Origin: Sanguibacter gelidistatuariae
GTDB taxonomy: Bacteria; Actinomycetota; Actinomycetes; Actinomycetales; Cellulomonadaceae
DNA length: 64,000 nucleotides
Direction: 5' to 3'
Assembly (NCBI RefSeq): GCF_900096585.1
Contig: NZ_FMYH01000003.1
Coordinates: 372,001 to 436,000 of the forward strand
The position numbers were made by a program, and so were the translations under genes. Below are positions 13,263 to 63,481 of this stretch, piece after piece. The notes beneath the pieces were generated by a model that made no database searches, had not been told where the DNA came from, and worked only from the letters and a program-made list of their open reading frames with translations. The number at the start of each line of letters is the position of its first letter. Within the stretch, counting starts at the first letter, position 1.

Positions 13263-13295
13263 CAGAAGGCCACCTGCCCGGCAGGTGGCCTTCTG
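13263..13295 (+). terminator. Intrinsic terminator after the DKAT surface protein
   Basis: A perfect 15-bp inverted repeat (13263-13277 with 13281-13295, arm CAGAAGGCCACCTGC) has a 3-nt loop. It lies 22 bases after the stop and upstream of the ftsK promoter. Confidence 0.85.
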
Positions 13296-19446: not shown

Positions 19447-19481
19447 CTGAGCCCCCTGCCACACAGTGGCAGGGGGCTCAG
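19447..19481. terminator. Bidirectional terminator between clgR and lhr
   Basis: A perfect 16-bp inverted repeat (19447-19462 with 19466-19481, arm CTGAGCCCCCTGCCAC) has an ACA loop. It lies between the convergent clgR and lhr ends. Confidence 0.85.
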
Positions 19482-24924: not shown

Positions 24925-24940
24925 TCGAACAGATGTTCGG
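24925..24940. promoter_or_regulatory. LexA (SOS) box upstream of recA
   Basis: TCGAACAGATGTTCGG matches 11 of 12 specified bases of the actinobacterial SOS box TCGAAC-N4-GTTCGA. A -10-like TACGAT begins at 24942, so bound LexA would block RNA polymerase. The box is 156 bases before the recA start. Confidence 0.88.
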
Positions 24941-24965: not shown

Positions 24966-25096
24966 CGTCAGGCGTCGTCCACACCGCCGCAGCGGCAAGG
25001 CGGGAATGTCAGTGGCTGGACGTAGCGTCGAGACCGTAGACAACTTCAGGCACCACACCGAGCGGGATCCCGCTCCCAGACGTAGAGGTGGCAGAC

Positions 25097-26182
25097 ATGC
25101 CCGCACCAGCAGATCGCGAGAAGGCCCTCGAAGCGGCTCTCGCCCAGATCGACCGCAACTTCGGCAAGGGCTCCATCATGCGTCTCGGCGACCAGGGGCG
25201 CGCACCCGTCGAGATCATCCCCACCGGGTCGATCGCGCTCGACGTCGCGCTCGGCATCGGTGGCCTGCCCCGCGGCCGCGTCGTGGAGATCTACGGACCG
25301 GAGTCGAGCGGTAAGACCACGCTCGCCCTGCACGCCGTCGCCAGCGCACAGCGCAACGGCGGCATCGCCGCCTTCATCGACGCCGAGCATGCCCTCGACC
25401 CGGACTACGCCAAGAAGCTCGGCGTCGACACGGACGCGCTCCTGGTCTCCCAGCCGGACACGGGGGAGCAAGCGCTCGAGATCGTTGACATGCTCATCCG
25501 CTCCGGGGCGATCGACGTCATCGTCATCGACTCCGTCGCGGCGCTCGTACCCAAGGCCGAGATCGAGGGCGAGATGGGTGACAGCCACGTCGGTCTGCAG
25601 GCCCGCCTGATGTCGCAGGCGTTGCGCAAGATCACCGGGGCACTCAGCCAGTCCGGCACGACCGCGATCTTCATCAACCAACTGCGCGAGAAGATCGGCG
25701 TCATGTTTGGGTCCCCTGAGACCACGACGGGTGGCAAGGCGCTCAAGTTCTACGCCTCCATCCGCCTGGACATCCGCCGGATCGAGACCCTCAAGGAGGG
25801 CACCGAGCCGATCGGCAACAGGACCCGTGTCAAGGTCGTCAAGAACAAGATGGCCCCGCCCTTCAAGCAGGCCGAGTTCGACATCATCTACGGCGTGGGC
25901 ATCTCGCGCGAGGGTGGCCTGATCGACATGGGCGTCGAGCACGGATTTGTGCGCAAGTCCGGGTCCTGGTTCACCTACGACGGTGACCAGCTCGGTCAGG
26001 GCAAGGAGAACGCTCGCGGCTTCCTGCGAGACAACCCCGACCTCGCGAACGAGCTGGAGAAGCGCATCAAGGAGAAGCTTGGCGTCGGGGCGCGTGTCGA
26101 CGCGCCCGCCGAGGCCGCCCCGGCAGCACCTGCCGAGAAGTCGACTGCCGCAGCGGCCAAGGCCAAGAAGGCCGACGCCTGA
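25097..26182 (+). CDS. recA: Recombinase RecA
   Basis: RecA drives homologous strand exchange and, as a nucleoprotein filament, triggers LexA self-cleavage. The 361-residue protein has the N-terminal [15 protein letters not shown], Walker [15 protein letters not shown] near 69, [18 protein letters not shown], the loop-2 region [19 protein letters not shown], and an Ala/Lys-rich tail. No intein is present. I chose ATG 25097 because GAGG (25085-25088) sits 8 bases before it. The in-frame GTG at 25088 would overlap this ribosome-binding site. Regulation by LexA is indicated by the box at 24925. recX follows after a strong hairpin. Confidence 0.97.
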
Positions 26183-26200
26183 GTCCGATGCGCCACTCGA

Positions 26201-26256
26201 CGCGGGGGTCACGTCAACGTTCTCCTGGGGAAGAGGAGACGTCCGTGACCCCCGCG
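26201..26256 (+). promoter_or_regulatory. Long hairpin that occludes the recX ribosome-binding site and start
   Basis: A 13-bp perfect outer stem (26201-26213 with 26244-26256, arm CGCGGGGGTCACG) encloses an inner stem. The inner stem pairs 26217-26220 with 26239-26242, then 26222-26226 with 26234-26238, leaving a 7-nt loop GGGGAAG. The Shine-Dalgarno GAGGAG (26233-26238) and the GTG start (26245-26247) are both inside it. No T-run follows, so translational control of recX relative to recA, or partial attenuation, is more likely than simple termination. Confidence 0.8.
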
Positions 26257-26847
26257 CCACCATCGAGCCCGCTGGAGCAGGAAGAGCGGGCCAGGAATCT
26301 CGCCCTGCGCATGCTCACGGCCGCGCCCAAGAGCCGGGCGCAGGTCGAGGAGCGCCTGGCCGCGAAGGAGGTCGACGAGGCCATCATCTGCCGGCTCCTC
26401 GACCGCTTCGAGCAGGTGGGACTGCTCGATGACGCCGAGCTCGCCGCGATGATCGTGCGCACCCGGTTCGCAGAGAAGAAGCAGTCCCGTCGGGCGATCG
26501 CCCAGGAGCTCAGCCGCAAGGGGATCCCGGTACACATCGCCGCGGCGGCGCTCGACCAGCTCGACGACGACGACGAGAGCGCTGCGGCGCTCGAGATCGC
26601 GCGGGCGCGTCTGCGCCGGACACAGGGGCTGAGCCCCGACACCCGTATCCGTCGTGCCTTGGGTGCGCTCGGTCGCAAAGGCTATTCCTCCGGCGTTGCC
26701 ATGGCTAGCATCCGTGCGGCCCTCGCCGAGGAAGGGGCCGTCGAGGTCGACGACGATGCCCGCTTCGATGCCGGCCACGATGCCGGCCGTGATGCTGACG
26801 GCGAGTCGCTCGGTATGGACGCGTCGACGTACGACGGGGGCCTCTGA
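26245..26847 (+). CDS. recX: Regulatory protein RecX
   Basis: RecX binds RecA filaments and limits their growth and activity. The 200-residue protein has the three-helix tandem repeats of the family (RNLALRMLTAAPKSRAQVEE; RTRFAEKKQSRRAIAQELSR; RRALGALGRKGYSSGVAMAS). The C-terminus is Asp/Gly-rich. I chose GTG 26245 because GAGGAG ends 6 bases before it. An ATG at 26188 has no ribosome-binding site and would place the hairpin inside the coding sequence. It follows recA by 62 bases, so the two are most likely one transcript. Confidence 0.93.
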   Translation: MTPAPPSSPLEQEERARNLALRMLTAAPKSRAQVEERLAAKEVDEAIICRLLDRFEQVGLLDDAELAAMIVRTRFAEKKQSRRAIAQELSRKGIPVHIAAAALDQLDDDDESAAALEIARARLRRTQGLSPDTRIRRALGALGRKGYSSGVAMASIRAALAEEGAVEVDDDARFDAGHDAGRDADGESLGMDASTYDGGL

Positions 26848-26973: not shown

Positions 26974-28440
26974 GTGACTGCAGGTGAGATCGGTGTCCTC
27001 CTGGCGCTGCTCGGATCGTCCCTGGTGGCCCTGCTCCTGGTGCACGTCGCCCGGCGCGAGGCCGCAGACGTGCGCGCCCAGGCGATCATCGACGTCGCCG
27101 AGGTCCGGGAGGCTACCAAGCAGCGTGACGCCGAGTCCCTCGTTCGGCTCGAGGAGGCGCGCGCCTCCGAACGCCACCTCAACAAGCTCCGATCACGAAC
27201 CGAGGACATGGCCGAGAAGACCGACGCCCGCGCCGTCGAGGTCGAACGCCTGACCATCGACTCCGCCCAGGAACGGGCGCGGCTGCGAGCGACGCTGCTG
27301 ACAGAGCTCGAAGCCGTGGCTGGGCTCTCCCAGGACGAAGCTTCCACCCGGCTCGTCGAGCAGATGCGTGAGCAGGCGGTCCAGGACGCAGCAGCCTCGG
27401 TCCACCGGATCGAGGCGGCCGCCCGCCGCCGCGCGGACGAGCGGGCCCGCCACATCGTCGCGACCGCGGTCCAGCGCCTCGCCGTCCCCACGAGCTCGGC
27501 GGCCGCCGTGACGGTCCTGGCGCTTCCCTCGGAGGACATGCGCGGGCGGATCATCGGCAAGGAAGGGCGCAACATCCGGACCTTCGAAGCCGTGACTGGC
27601 GTCAACGTGCTCCTCGAGGACGACTCCGAGTCCGTCCAGCTGTCCAGTTTTGATCCCGAACGTCGCGAGATCGCCGAGGTGGTGATGCGCCTGCTCATGG
27701 ACGACGGGCGGATCCATCCGCAGCGGATCGAGGCGGCGTACGCCCATGCGTTCGCTGATGCCCCCGCGCGCACCGTCGCGGCCGGGCACGACGCCGCCGA
27801 GCGGAGCGGGGTGCAACGACTGGCTCCCGAGCTCGTCGAGGCGATGGGCCGATTGAGGCTGCGCTCCTCCTACTCCCAGAACGTCCTCGAGCACAGCGTC
27901 GAGTCCGCGCTGGTCGCCGCCGCGATGGCAGCGGAGATCGGCGCCGACGTCGAGCTGTCGCGACGAGCGGCGTTCCTGCACGACATCGGCAAGTGCCTGC
28001 CCGCGGGCTCGTCTGGCTCGCACGCCACGGTCGGGGCACGGCTCGTGGGGCGCGCCGGGGAGTCCGCTGTCGTGGTCAATGCCGTGGCGGCCCATCACGG
28101 GGAGATCGAGGCGACCTCGGTCGAGGCGGTCCTGGTGCAGGCTGCCGATGCGTGCTCGGCCGCACGTCCCGGCGCGCGCCGGGACGACCTCGACCGGTAC
28201 GTCGAACGGATGGAGCAGCTCGAACAGCTCGTGAGCACCCACACCGGCGTGAAGAAGGTGCTCGCGATGGCCAGCGGCCACGAGGTCCGGGTCGTGGTCG
28301 AGCCCCGCGAGATCTCCGACGCGGAACTGCCCGGTCTCGCCGCGGCGATCGCCGGGCACATCGAGAAGGACCTGAGCTACCCGGGCGAGGTGTCGGTCAC
28401 CGTCGTCCGCGAGCTCCGTGCGACGGCCACGGCGGGCTGA
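26974..28440 (+). CDS. rny: Ribonuclease Y
   Basis: RNase Y is a membrane-anchored endoribonuclease that starts mRNA decay. The 488-residue protein has the full layout: an N-terminal membrane helix (GVLLALLGSSLVALLLVHVA, 6-25), a long charged coiled coil (about 30-170), a KH domain (SEDMRGRIIGKEGRNIRTFE, near 186-205, with GKEG) and an HD phosphohydrolase domain (ahead of it NVLEHSVESALVAAAMAAEI, then HDIGK near 334, and AVAAHHGEIE). The GTG start has a weak GGTGAG upstream. Its presence with RNase J is notable, since many actinobacteria rely on RNase E/G instead. Confidence 0.94.
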   Translation: MTAGEIGVLLALLGSSLVALLLVHVARREAADVRAQAIIDVAEVREATKQRDAESLVRLEEARASERHLNKLRSRTEDMAEKTDARAVEVERLTIDSAQERARLRATLLTELEAVAGLSQDEASTRLVEQMREQAVQDAAASVHRIEAAARRRADERARHIVATAVQRLAVPTSSAAAVTVLALPSEDMRGRIIGKEGRNIRTFEAVTGVNVLLEDDSESVQLSSFDPERREIAEVVMRLLMDDGRIHPQRIEAAYAHAFADAPARTVAAGHDAAERSGVQRLAPELVEAMGRLRLRSSYSQNVLEHSVESALVAAAMAAEIGADVELSRRAAFLHDIGKCLPAGSSGSHATVGARLVGRAGESAVVVNAVAAHHGEIEATSVEAVLVQAADACSAARPGARRDDLDRYVERMEQLEQLVSTHTGVKKVLAMASGHEVRVVVEPREISDAELPGLAAAIAGHIEKDLSYPGEVSVTVVRELRATATAG

Positions 28441-47827: not shown

Positions 47828-47864
47828 ACGAAGGGCTCCTCACCGTGGGTGAGGAGCCCTTCGT
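47828..47864. terminator. Bidirectional terminator between ldh and lexA
   Basis: A perfect 17-bp inverted repeat (47828-47844 with 47848-47864, arm ACGAAGGGCTCCTCACC) has a GTG loop. It lies between convergent genes. Confidence 0.88.
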
Positions 47865-51792: not shown

Positions 51793-51829
51793 GATGAGCC
51801 ATGCACTCGCTCGATGAGCCGTGCACTGG
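51793..51829. repeat. Imperfect direct repeat before the long hairpin
   Basis: GATGAGCCATGCACTCG (51793-51809) and GATGAGCCGTGCACTGG (51813-51829) differ at two positions and are spaced 20 bp start to start. The second copy abuts the left arm of the 25-bp stem. Confidence 0.7.
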
Positions 51830-51883
51830 CCCAGACGCCGACAGGCCCTGTCCCGCGAGGGACAGGGCCTGTCGGCGTCTGGG
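51830..51883. terminator. 25-bp perfect hairpin with GCGA tetraloop, bidirectional terminator
   Basis: Bases 51830-51854 pair perfectly with 51859-51883 around a GCGA (GNRA-type) loop. It lies between DUF5302 and the convergent serA. No T-tract is present on either side. Of the simple hairpins I noted in this window it has the longest uninterrupted stem. Confidence 0.85.
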
Positions 51884-51896
51884 CGTCAGGCGACGA

Positions 51897-61084: not shown

Positions 61085-61114
61085 TTGACAGGTATCGAAC
61101 GAGTGTTCGATACT
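61085..61114 (+). promoter_or_regulatory. SOS-controlled promoter of the HEPN-dinB operon
   Basis: A consensus -35 TTGACA (61085-61090) and -10 GATACT (61109-61114) are 18 bp apart. A perfect LexA box overlaps the spacer and -10. A strong AGGAGGTG site (61121-61128) follows 6 bases before the ATG. Confidence 0.88.
61095..61110. promoter_or_regulatory. Perfect LexA (SOS) box before HEPN-dinB
   Basis: TCGAACGAGTGTTCGA is an exact match to TCGAAC-N4-GTTCGA, the best in the window. It lies between the divergent spermidine-synthase-like gene and the HEPN gene. Confidence 0.93.
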
Positions 61115-63448: not shown

Positions 63449-63481
63449 GAGGGAGTCGGCTGCGATGCAGCCGACTCCCTC
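63449..63481 (+). terminator. Intrinsic terminator after dinB-DUF3040
   Basis: A 15-bp perfect stem (63449-63463 with 63467-63481, arm GAGGGAGTCGGCTGC) has a GAT loop and is followed by TGTCGTG. It separates the SOS operon from the mraZ operon. Confidence 0.85.

Follow-up and report, generated by a model that had tools for sequence, protein, structure and literature searches.

A conserved, loop-capped RNA hairpin at the recA-recX boundary of Sanguibacter and related genera that may limit recX

The boundary between recA and recX in Sanguibacter gelidistatuariae carries a stable hairpin that is, in all probability, a selected RNA structure. Most of what is known about how bacteria hold RecX at a much lower level than RecA comes from E. 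coli, which uses a terminator. Judged from sequence comparisons, the hairpin is a new RNA element, absent from Rfam, at this known regulatory boundary in another phylum. The analysis started from a window, i.e. the whole stretch of 64,000 nt of S. gelidistatuariae DNA, and was extended to recA-recX junctions gathered from the genus, the family, and the order. In all loci analysed, recA and recX are adjacent.

The window contains recA at positions 25088..26182 of the forward strand (start GTG at 25088 or ATG at 25097, stop TGA at 26180-26182), identified by its open reading frame and by Pfam matches of the product to RecA (E 4e-144) and RecA_C. A pattern scan revealed an SOS/LexA-box-like palindrome, CGAACAGATGTTCG, upstream of recA (24926..24939, forward strand); the hairpin follows about 1.3 kb downstream of it. 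The recX reading frame (26188..26847, forward strand) encodes the RecX HTH1-3 domains according to Pfam, and it stays open further upstream, across the recA stop. The ORF directly behind recX (26974..28440) has KH- and HD-like sequence and appears RNase Y-like by eye, so that a candidate processing enzyme would be encoded beside recX. A second SOS-box-like palindrome, CGAACGAGTGTTCG, is present at position 61096 of the window.

The hairpin spans positions 26201..26256 of the forward strand and comprises stem segments of 13, 4, and 5 bp, capped by the heptaloop GGGGAAG (26227-26233). Read directly from the sequence, the outer stem is a perfect 13-bp helix (CGCGGGGGTCACG at 26201-26213 and CGTGACCCCCGCG at 26244-26256), and the inner stem is formed by ACGT/ACGT (26217-26220/26239-26242) and CTCCT/AGGAG (26222-26226/26234-26238). 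For the isolated hairpin, the predicted fold is exactly this structure, with −40.5 kcal/mol and z = −6.4, and 0 of 200 shuffled sequences were as stable; in a context of 101 nt, the z value against shuffles is −4.3. The SD-like GAGGAG (26233..26238, forward strand), which is part of the apical stem, and the GTG at 26245-26247 in the 3′ arm are both paired in the predicted fold. Both approaches thus confirm the geometry described in the sequence-only reading, i.e. a 13-bp stem and a 4+5-bp inner stem enclosing these two motifs. That no T-run follows the hairpin, as also stated there, is correct (the following sequence is CCACCATCGAGC), but this is not distinctive here, because T tails are also missing from other long perfect hairpins within the window. 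Among these are one at 51829..51884, with a perfect stem of 26 bp and a loop of 4 nt, and those at 2404-2437, 13263-13295, 19447-19481, 47828-47864, and 63449-63481. Rfam scans of the window and of 12 other loci yielded nothing relevant and no match above the gathering score.

The same capped hairpin, with arms that have diverged and yet remain paired, is predicted for all six Sanguibacter loci, i.e. those of the window species and five congeners. Its tip, TCYTGGGGAAGAGGA, is invariant in the six genomes, each of which contains it, by exact match, a single time. The apical segment TCCTGGGGAAGAGGA (26223..26237, forward strand) has one exact copy per genome, always at the recA-recX junction, and the sole match to the tip with one mismatch at another site is in genome G001. 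Among the compensating changes, CTCCT/AGGAG is replaced by GTCCT/AGGAC in S. suaedae, and two loci (L003 and L006) differ by a double change from G-C to A-T.

In seven further genera of the family, a hairpin of the form CGGCGN[GGGGAA]GCGYCG was found at 32 loci, about 20-145 nt after the recA stop. An alignment of the 29 distinct family hairpin sequences has pairing in 97% of its cells and double changes at six pairs, with 38 double-changed cells vs. 10.2 in shuffles. The covariation value is 0.286, compared with 0.034-0.096 in slid controls, and G-U pairs are retained in 26-28 of the 29 sequences. Both the Sanguibacter folds and the family covariation show that the pairing, on whose conservation the earlier proposal depended, is kept in relatives. 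The codons used in the loop are also fixed: where the loop has its common phase, its glycine is encoded by GGG at 31 of 31 loci (background 13%) and the arginine that follows by CGT at 28 of 31 (background 10%). The loop codon phase in Sanguibacter and at one further locus (L065) differs from that of the other family loci; at the latter, recX apparently starts with a GTG at +97, behind the hairpin, and the hairpin is still intact. The covariation, the kept G-U pairs, the fixed rare loop codons, and the survival across the frame change lead us to conclude that the structure and its capped loop are selected as RNA, largely independently of the encoded sequence. A function of the palindrome at the DNA level was rejected, as the conserved G-U pairs are mismatches in DNA and the sense of the loop is constant.

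Local structure behind recA is also found outside the family. Among 133 loci, the first 100 nt past the recA stop have a mean z value of −2.6 against shuffles, with 67% below −2 and 47% below −3, whereas three control windows taken from recA and recX have only 1-11% below −2. The family gives a signal similar to that of other families of the order; across the class it is weaker (37% of 30 loci, a set that includes one locus, L180, at which the recA/recX pairing was misassigned). Other members of the order have different loops, many of them of the GNRA type. Shortly after the recA stop, and inside recX, a Mycobacterium-like recA-recX locus (L182) carries a different inverted repeat, GAGCAGGCGCA...TGCGCCTGCTC, with a z value of −3.5. 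In the family, the apical motif also turns up twice at sites other than recA (L155 and L156); both lack an SOS box and seem incidental. The hairpin starts at a median of +18 nt from the recA stop (interquartile range 10-35 nt, standard deviation 18.6 nt), and the distance to the RecX domain varies widely, from 38 to 971 nt. The position thus follows the recA stop, not the RecX domain, and for this reason the hairpin is read as a boundary element of the recA 3′ end.

The chance that the hairpin limits recX appears to be slightly better than even. We propose that it would act in cis on the mRNA, marking the recA/recX boundary of an SOS-induced recA-recX transcript and forming a barrier at the 3′ end of recA, through partial termination or as a stop for processing or exonucleases. 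Such a barrier would leave mostly recA-only mRNA and little recX; ribosomes that enter recX from a weak, coupled start would melt the hairpin and are therefore a possible opener. That recX would be limited chiefly at the 3′ end of the transcript, and not through translation, is a tentative suggestion that falls a little short of even, and we hold the boundary-barrier explanation as a whole, with its inferred effect on recX, with the same reserve. Several points speak against it. Intrinsic termination normally needs a U-tract, and the missing U-tract argues against termination at the hairpin; in addition, a ribosome translating recX would unfold the structure, and the coding signal of the Sanguibacter extension is weak (see below).

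In E. coli, according to a passage in PMC6662834, a terminator lies between recA and recX and is read through at 5-10%. Like that terminator, the hairpin is stable, GC-rich, and located directly behind recA in an SOS-induced recA-recX operon, where it would keep recX below recA. It differs in having no U-tract, in lying mostly inside the recX frame, and in its conserved capped loop; an untranslated gap before recX that holds the hairpin is not present in most relatives and is found in only a few (e.g. L050, L063, and L065). By analogy, the outcome of the boundary model would resemble that of the E. coli terminator, reached by a U-less hairpin inside recX. The role in setting the RecA:RecX ratio that the sequence-only reading had assigned to the hairpin is plausible for a boundary hairpin, in contrast to a conserved burial of the ribosome-binding site and start codon (see below). 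Since the hairpin lies within the reading frame of recX and dictates the codons used there, it is directly mutable and testable.

The invariant loop, a further point against the barrier, exceeds the needs of a plain terminator, which favours the binding of a factor; a factor acting in trans probably recognises the conserved UGGGGAAG loop. A wider version of this idea, that the hairpin is a site for a protein or RNA on SOS transcripts that tunes recX, and elsewhere dnaE2, after DNA damage, is possible but doubtful. It is consistent with the retention of the loop across eight genera with differing arms, at one copy per genome, and with a second occurrence of the loop, which in other families caps the leader of an SOS-box-controlled DUF6504-dnaE2 operon. 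However, no candidate factor is known, and the different loops elsewhere in the order also speak against it.

The leaders were found with a covariance model of the family hairpin, run on 297 genomes of the class, followed by pattern searches, which added further cases. Hairpins with the same loop outside recA were found in the class, and four of them (L135, L137, L141, and L143) lie in 5′ leaders behind SOS boxes. All examined cases of a stem-forming TGGGGAAG...CTTCCCC have an SOS box 40-172 nt upstream. The genes behind the leader encode DUF6504 (Pfam), a second small protein, and then, where the contig reaches, a protein with a DnaE2-like PHP domain (by eye). SOS-box-led leaders of DUF6504-(small protein)-dnaE2 with a UGGGGAAG-capped stem are found at L135, L144-L154, L195, L196, L200, L211, L216, and L222. 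In the 11 loci measured, a CUUCCCC located 39-52 nt behind the loop can pair with it, an ideal geometry for an H-type pseudoknot, and the pseudoknot-like element has no Rfam match.

Both the leader and the recA-type hairpin belong to an SOS-controlled transcript and have a stem with a UGGGGAAG cap. In contrast to the leader, the recA-type hairpin is not a 5′ leader directly behind an SOS box, and no consistent cis CUUCCC pseudoknot partner was found near it, so that the likeness may be convergent. DUF6504 itself gave one weak match in 61 genomes of the hairpin-bearing family. As the CUUCCCC partner is missing at recA and the family is devoid of DUF6504, the two hairpins were not filed as one family. 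We consider it unlikely, although attractive, that the UGGGGAAG hairpin is an undescribed actinobacterial SOS RNA signal, with one factor or competing RNA acting at recA-recX and at the dnaE2 pseudoknot leader. If true, it would add a post-transcriptional layer to LexA control, setting the levels of RecX and of the error-prone polymerase after damage. The tip shared by two SOS transcripts makes post-transcriptional SOS control testable.

In another explanation, it is an ordinary gene-end hairpin that lacks a U-tract, in an actinobacterium rich in GC, and would stabilise the 3′ end of the recA mRNA without a special role for recX. Its position relative to the recA stop and the missing T tails of the other gene-end hairpins in the window fit this explanation. 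Ordinary gene-end hairpins, however, do not share an invariant loop, and this one lies mostly inside the downstream reading frame, where it overrides codon choice, so that we regard the explanation as rather unlikely.

Whether the hairpin could act through the recX ribosome-binding site depends on where recX starts. The window offers three candidates on the forward strand: CTG at 26179..26181, which overlaps the recA stop (CTGA), ATG at 26188..26190, upstream of the hairpin, and GTG at 26245..26247 in the 3′ arm. The ATG is shared with S. suarezii only, the GTG is likewise confined to these two species, and the putative CTG start is the sole near-cognate start at the junction common to all six Sanguibacter genomes. 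The SD energy is strongest for the GTG (−9.0 kcal/mol), and those of the other two are −3.8 and −4.3 kcal/mol; sequence and duplex energy indicate an SD-like AAGAAGG in the recA 3′ end (26165..26171, forward strand), 7 nt before the CTG. In two of the six Sanguibacter genomes, the recX frame contains no ATG, GTG, or TTG ahead of the RecX domain.

In most family genomes, recX has an ATG or GTG no further than about 15 nt from the recA stop and upstream of the hairpin. Relative to recA, recX is in the −1 frame in 88 of 134 loci, and its frame is usually open across the recA stop. Programmed −1 frameshifting from recA into recX was set aside, as the stop is not preceded by any consistent slippery sequence and an overlap of the ATGA/CTGA type gives the same frame. 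Twelve loci, including two of Sanguibacter, lack any ATG, GTG, or TTG in the stretch from the recA stop to the RecX domain (L003, L006, L009, L031, L032, L056, L085, L109, L122, L125, L129, and L130), which brings recX genes without canonical start codons to light. Their likeliest start, judged from the sequences, would be the CTG overlapping the recA TGA, with SD-like purines in the recA end. The mean SD energy at the CTG site is −6.5 in the genomes without a canonical start, −4.8 in those with a near ATG or GTG, and −4.3 in the background, a modest enrichment that is suggestive only, and a CTG is expected anywhere a C-ending codon precedes TGA.

In the wider family, changes in the extension are distributed over the codon positions as 867:888:1738, a third-position bias that supports translation of the region. 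For Sanguibacter the values are 5:6:6 and 5:4:2, i.e. the coding signal is weak and the test has no power; translation through the Sanguibacter hairpin is therefore inferred from the missing start codons and the codon bias of the wider family. Taken as a whole, the candidate starts suggest that recX probably begins upstream of the hairpin (in the window at ATG 26188 or CTG 26179), which would place the hairpin inside the recX reading frame. The sequence-only reading had named a start at 26188, with the hairpin inside the gene, as fatal to its proposal; this is probably the actual arrangement, with a start there or even at 26179, and across the family recX usually starts upstream of the hairpin. 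In mycobacteria, recX also has an upstream start, with an overlap of 32-35 nt with recA (PMC3062782). In both systems, the start of recX lies at the recA stop or upstream of it, and translation is probably coupled; the difference is that here an ATG or GTG near the stop, or apparently a CTG overlapping the TGA, is used, followed by the hairpin.

These starts bear on the mechanism originally proposed, in which the hairpin sequesters the recX SD motif (GAGGAG) and the GTG at 26245, so that translation is possible only once it is opened. The stem does pair a strong SD motif (−9.0 kcal/mol) and the GTG in the window species and in S. suarezii, as RBS-sequestering hairpins such as translational operators and RNA thermometers do. 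What differs is that the congeners do not retain the paired start codon: the other four of the six Sanguibacter genomes keep the hairpin and GAGGAG or GAGGAC without a start codon at SD distance, two of them without any canonical start, and most recX frames of the family begin upstream of the hairpin. Because four of six genomes keep the GAGGAG-like segment with no start behind it, the purine run is conserved as part of the structure. Burial of the SD motif and start codon thus finds no support as the conserved mechanism, and we consider sequestration improbable, although the GTG may still be occluded in the window species itself, where its SD motif is the strongest of the three candidates.

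That the palindrome is a side effect of selection acting on an Arg/Gly-rich RecX N-terminus, e.g. an AT-hook-like GVGKRRGRP, was rejected as very improbable and is largely refuted by phase and codon evidence: the hairpin encodes G-x-G-K-R-R-G-R-P in seven genera, but Sanguibacter and L065 have the same loop in another phase and with another peptide, and rare synonymous codons are fixed while pair-preserving substitutions that change amino acids occur in the family hairpins. The AT-hook-like GxGKRRGRP is encoded by the hairpin within the N-terminal extension of RecX, e.g. at L019, L066, and L076, and a DNA-binding RecX tail is therefore also possible.
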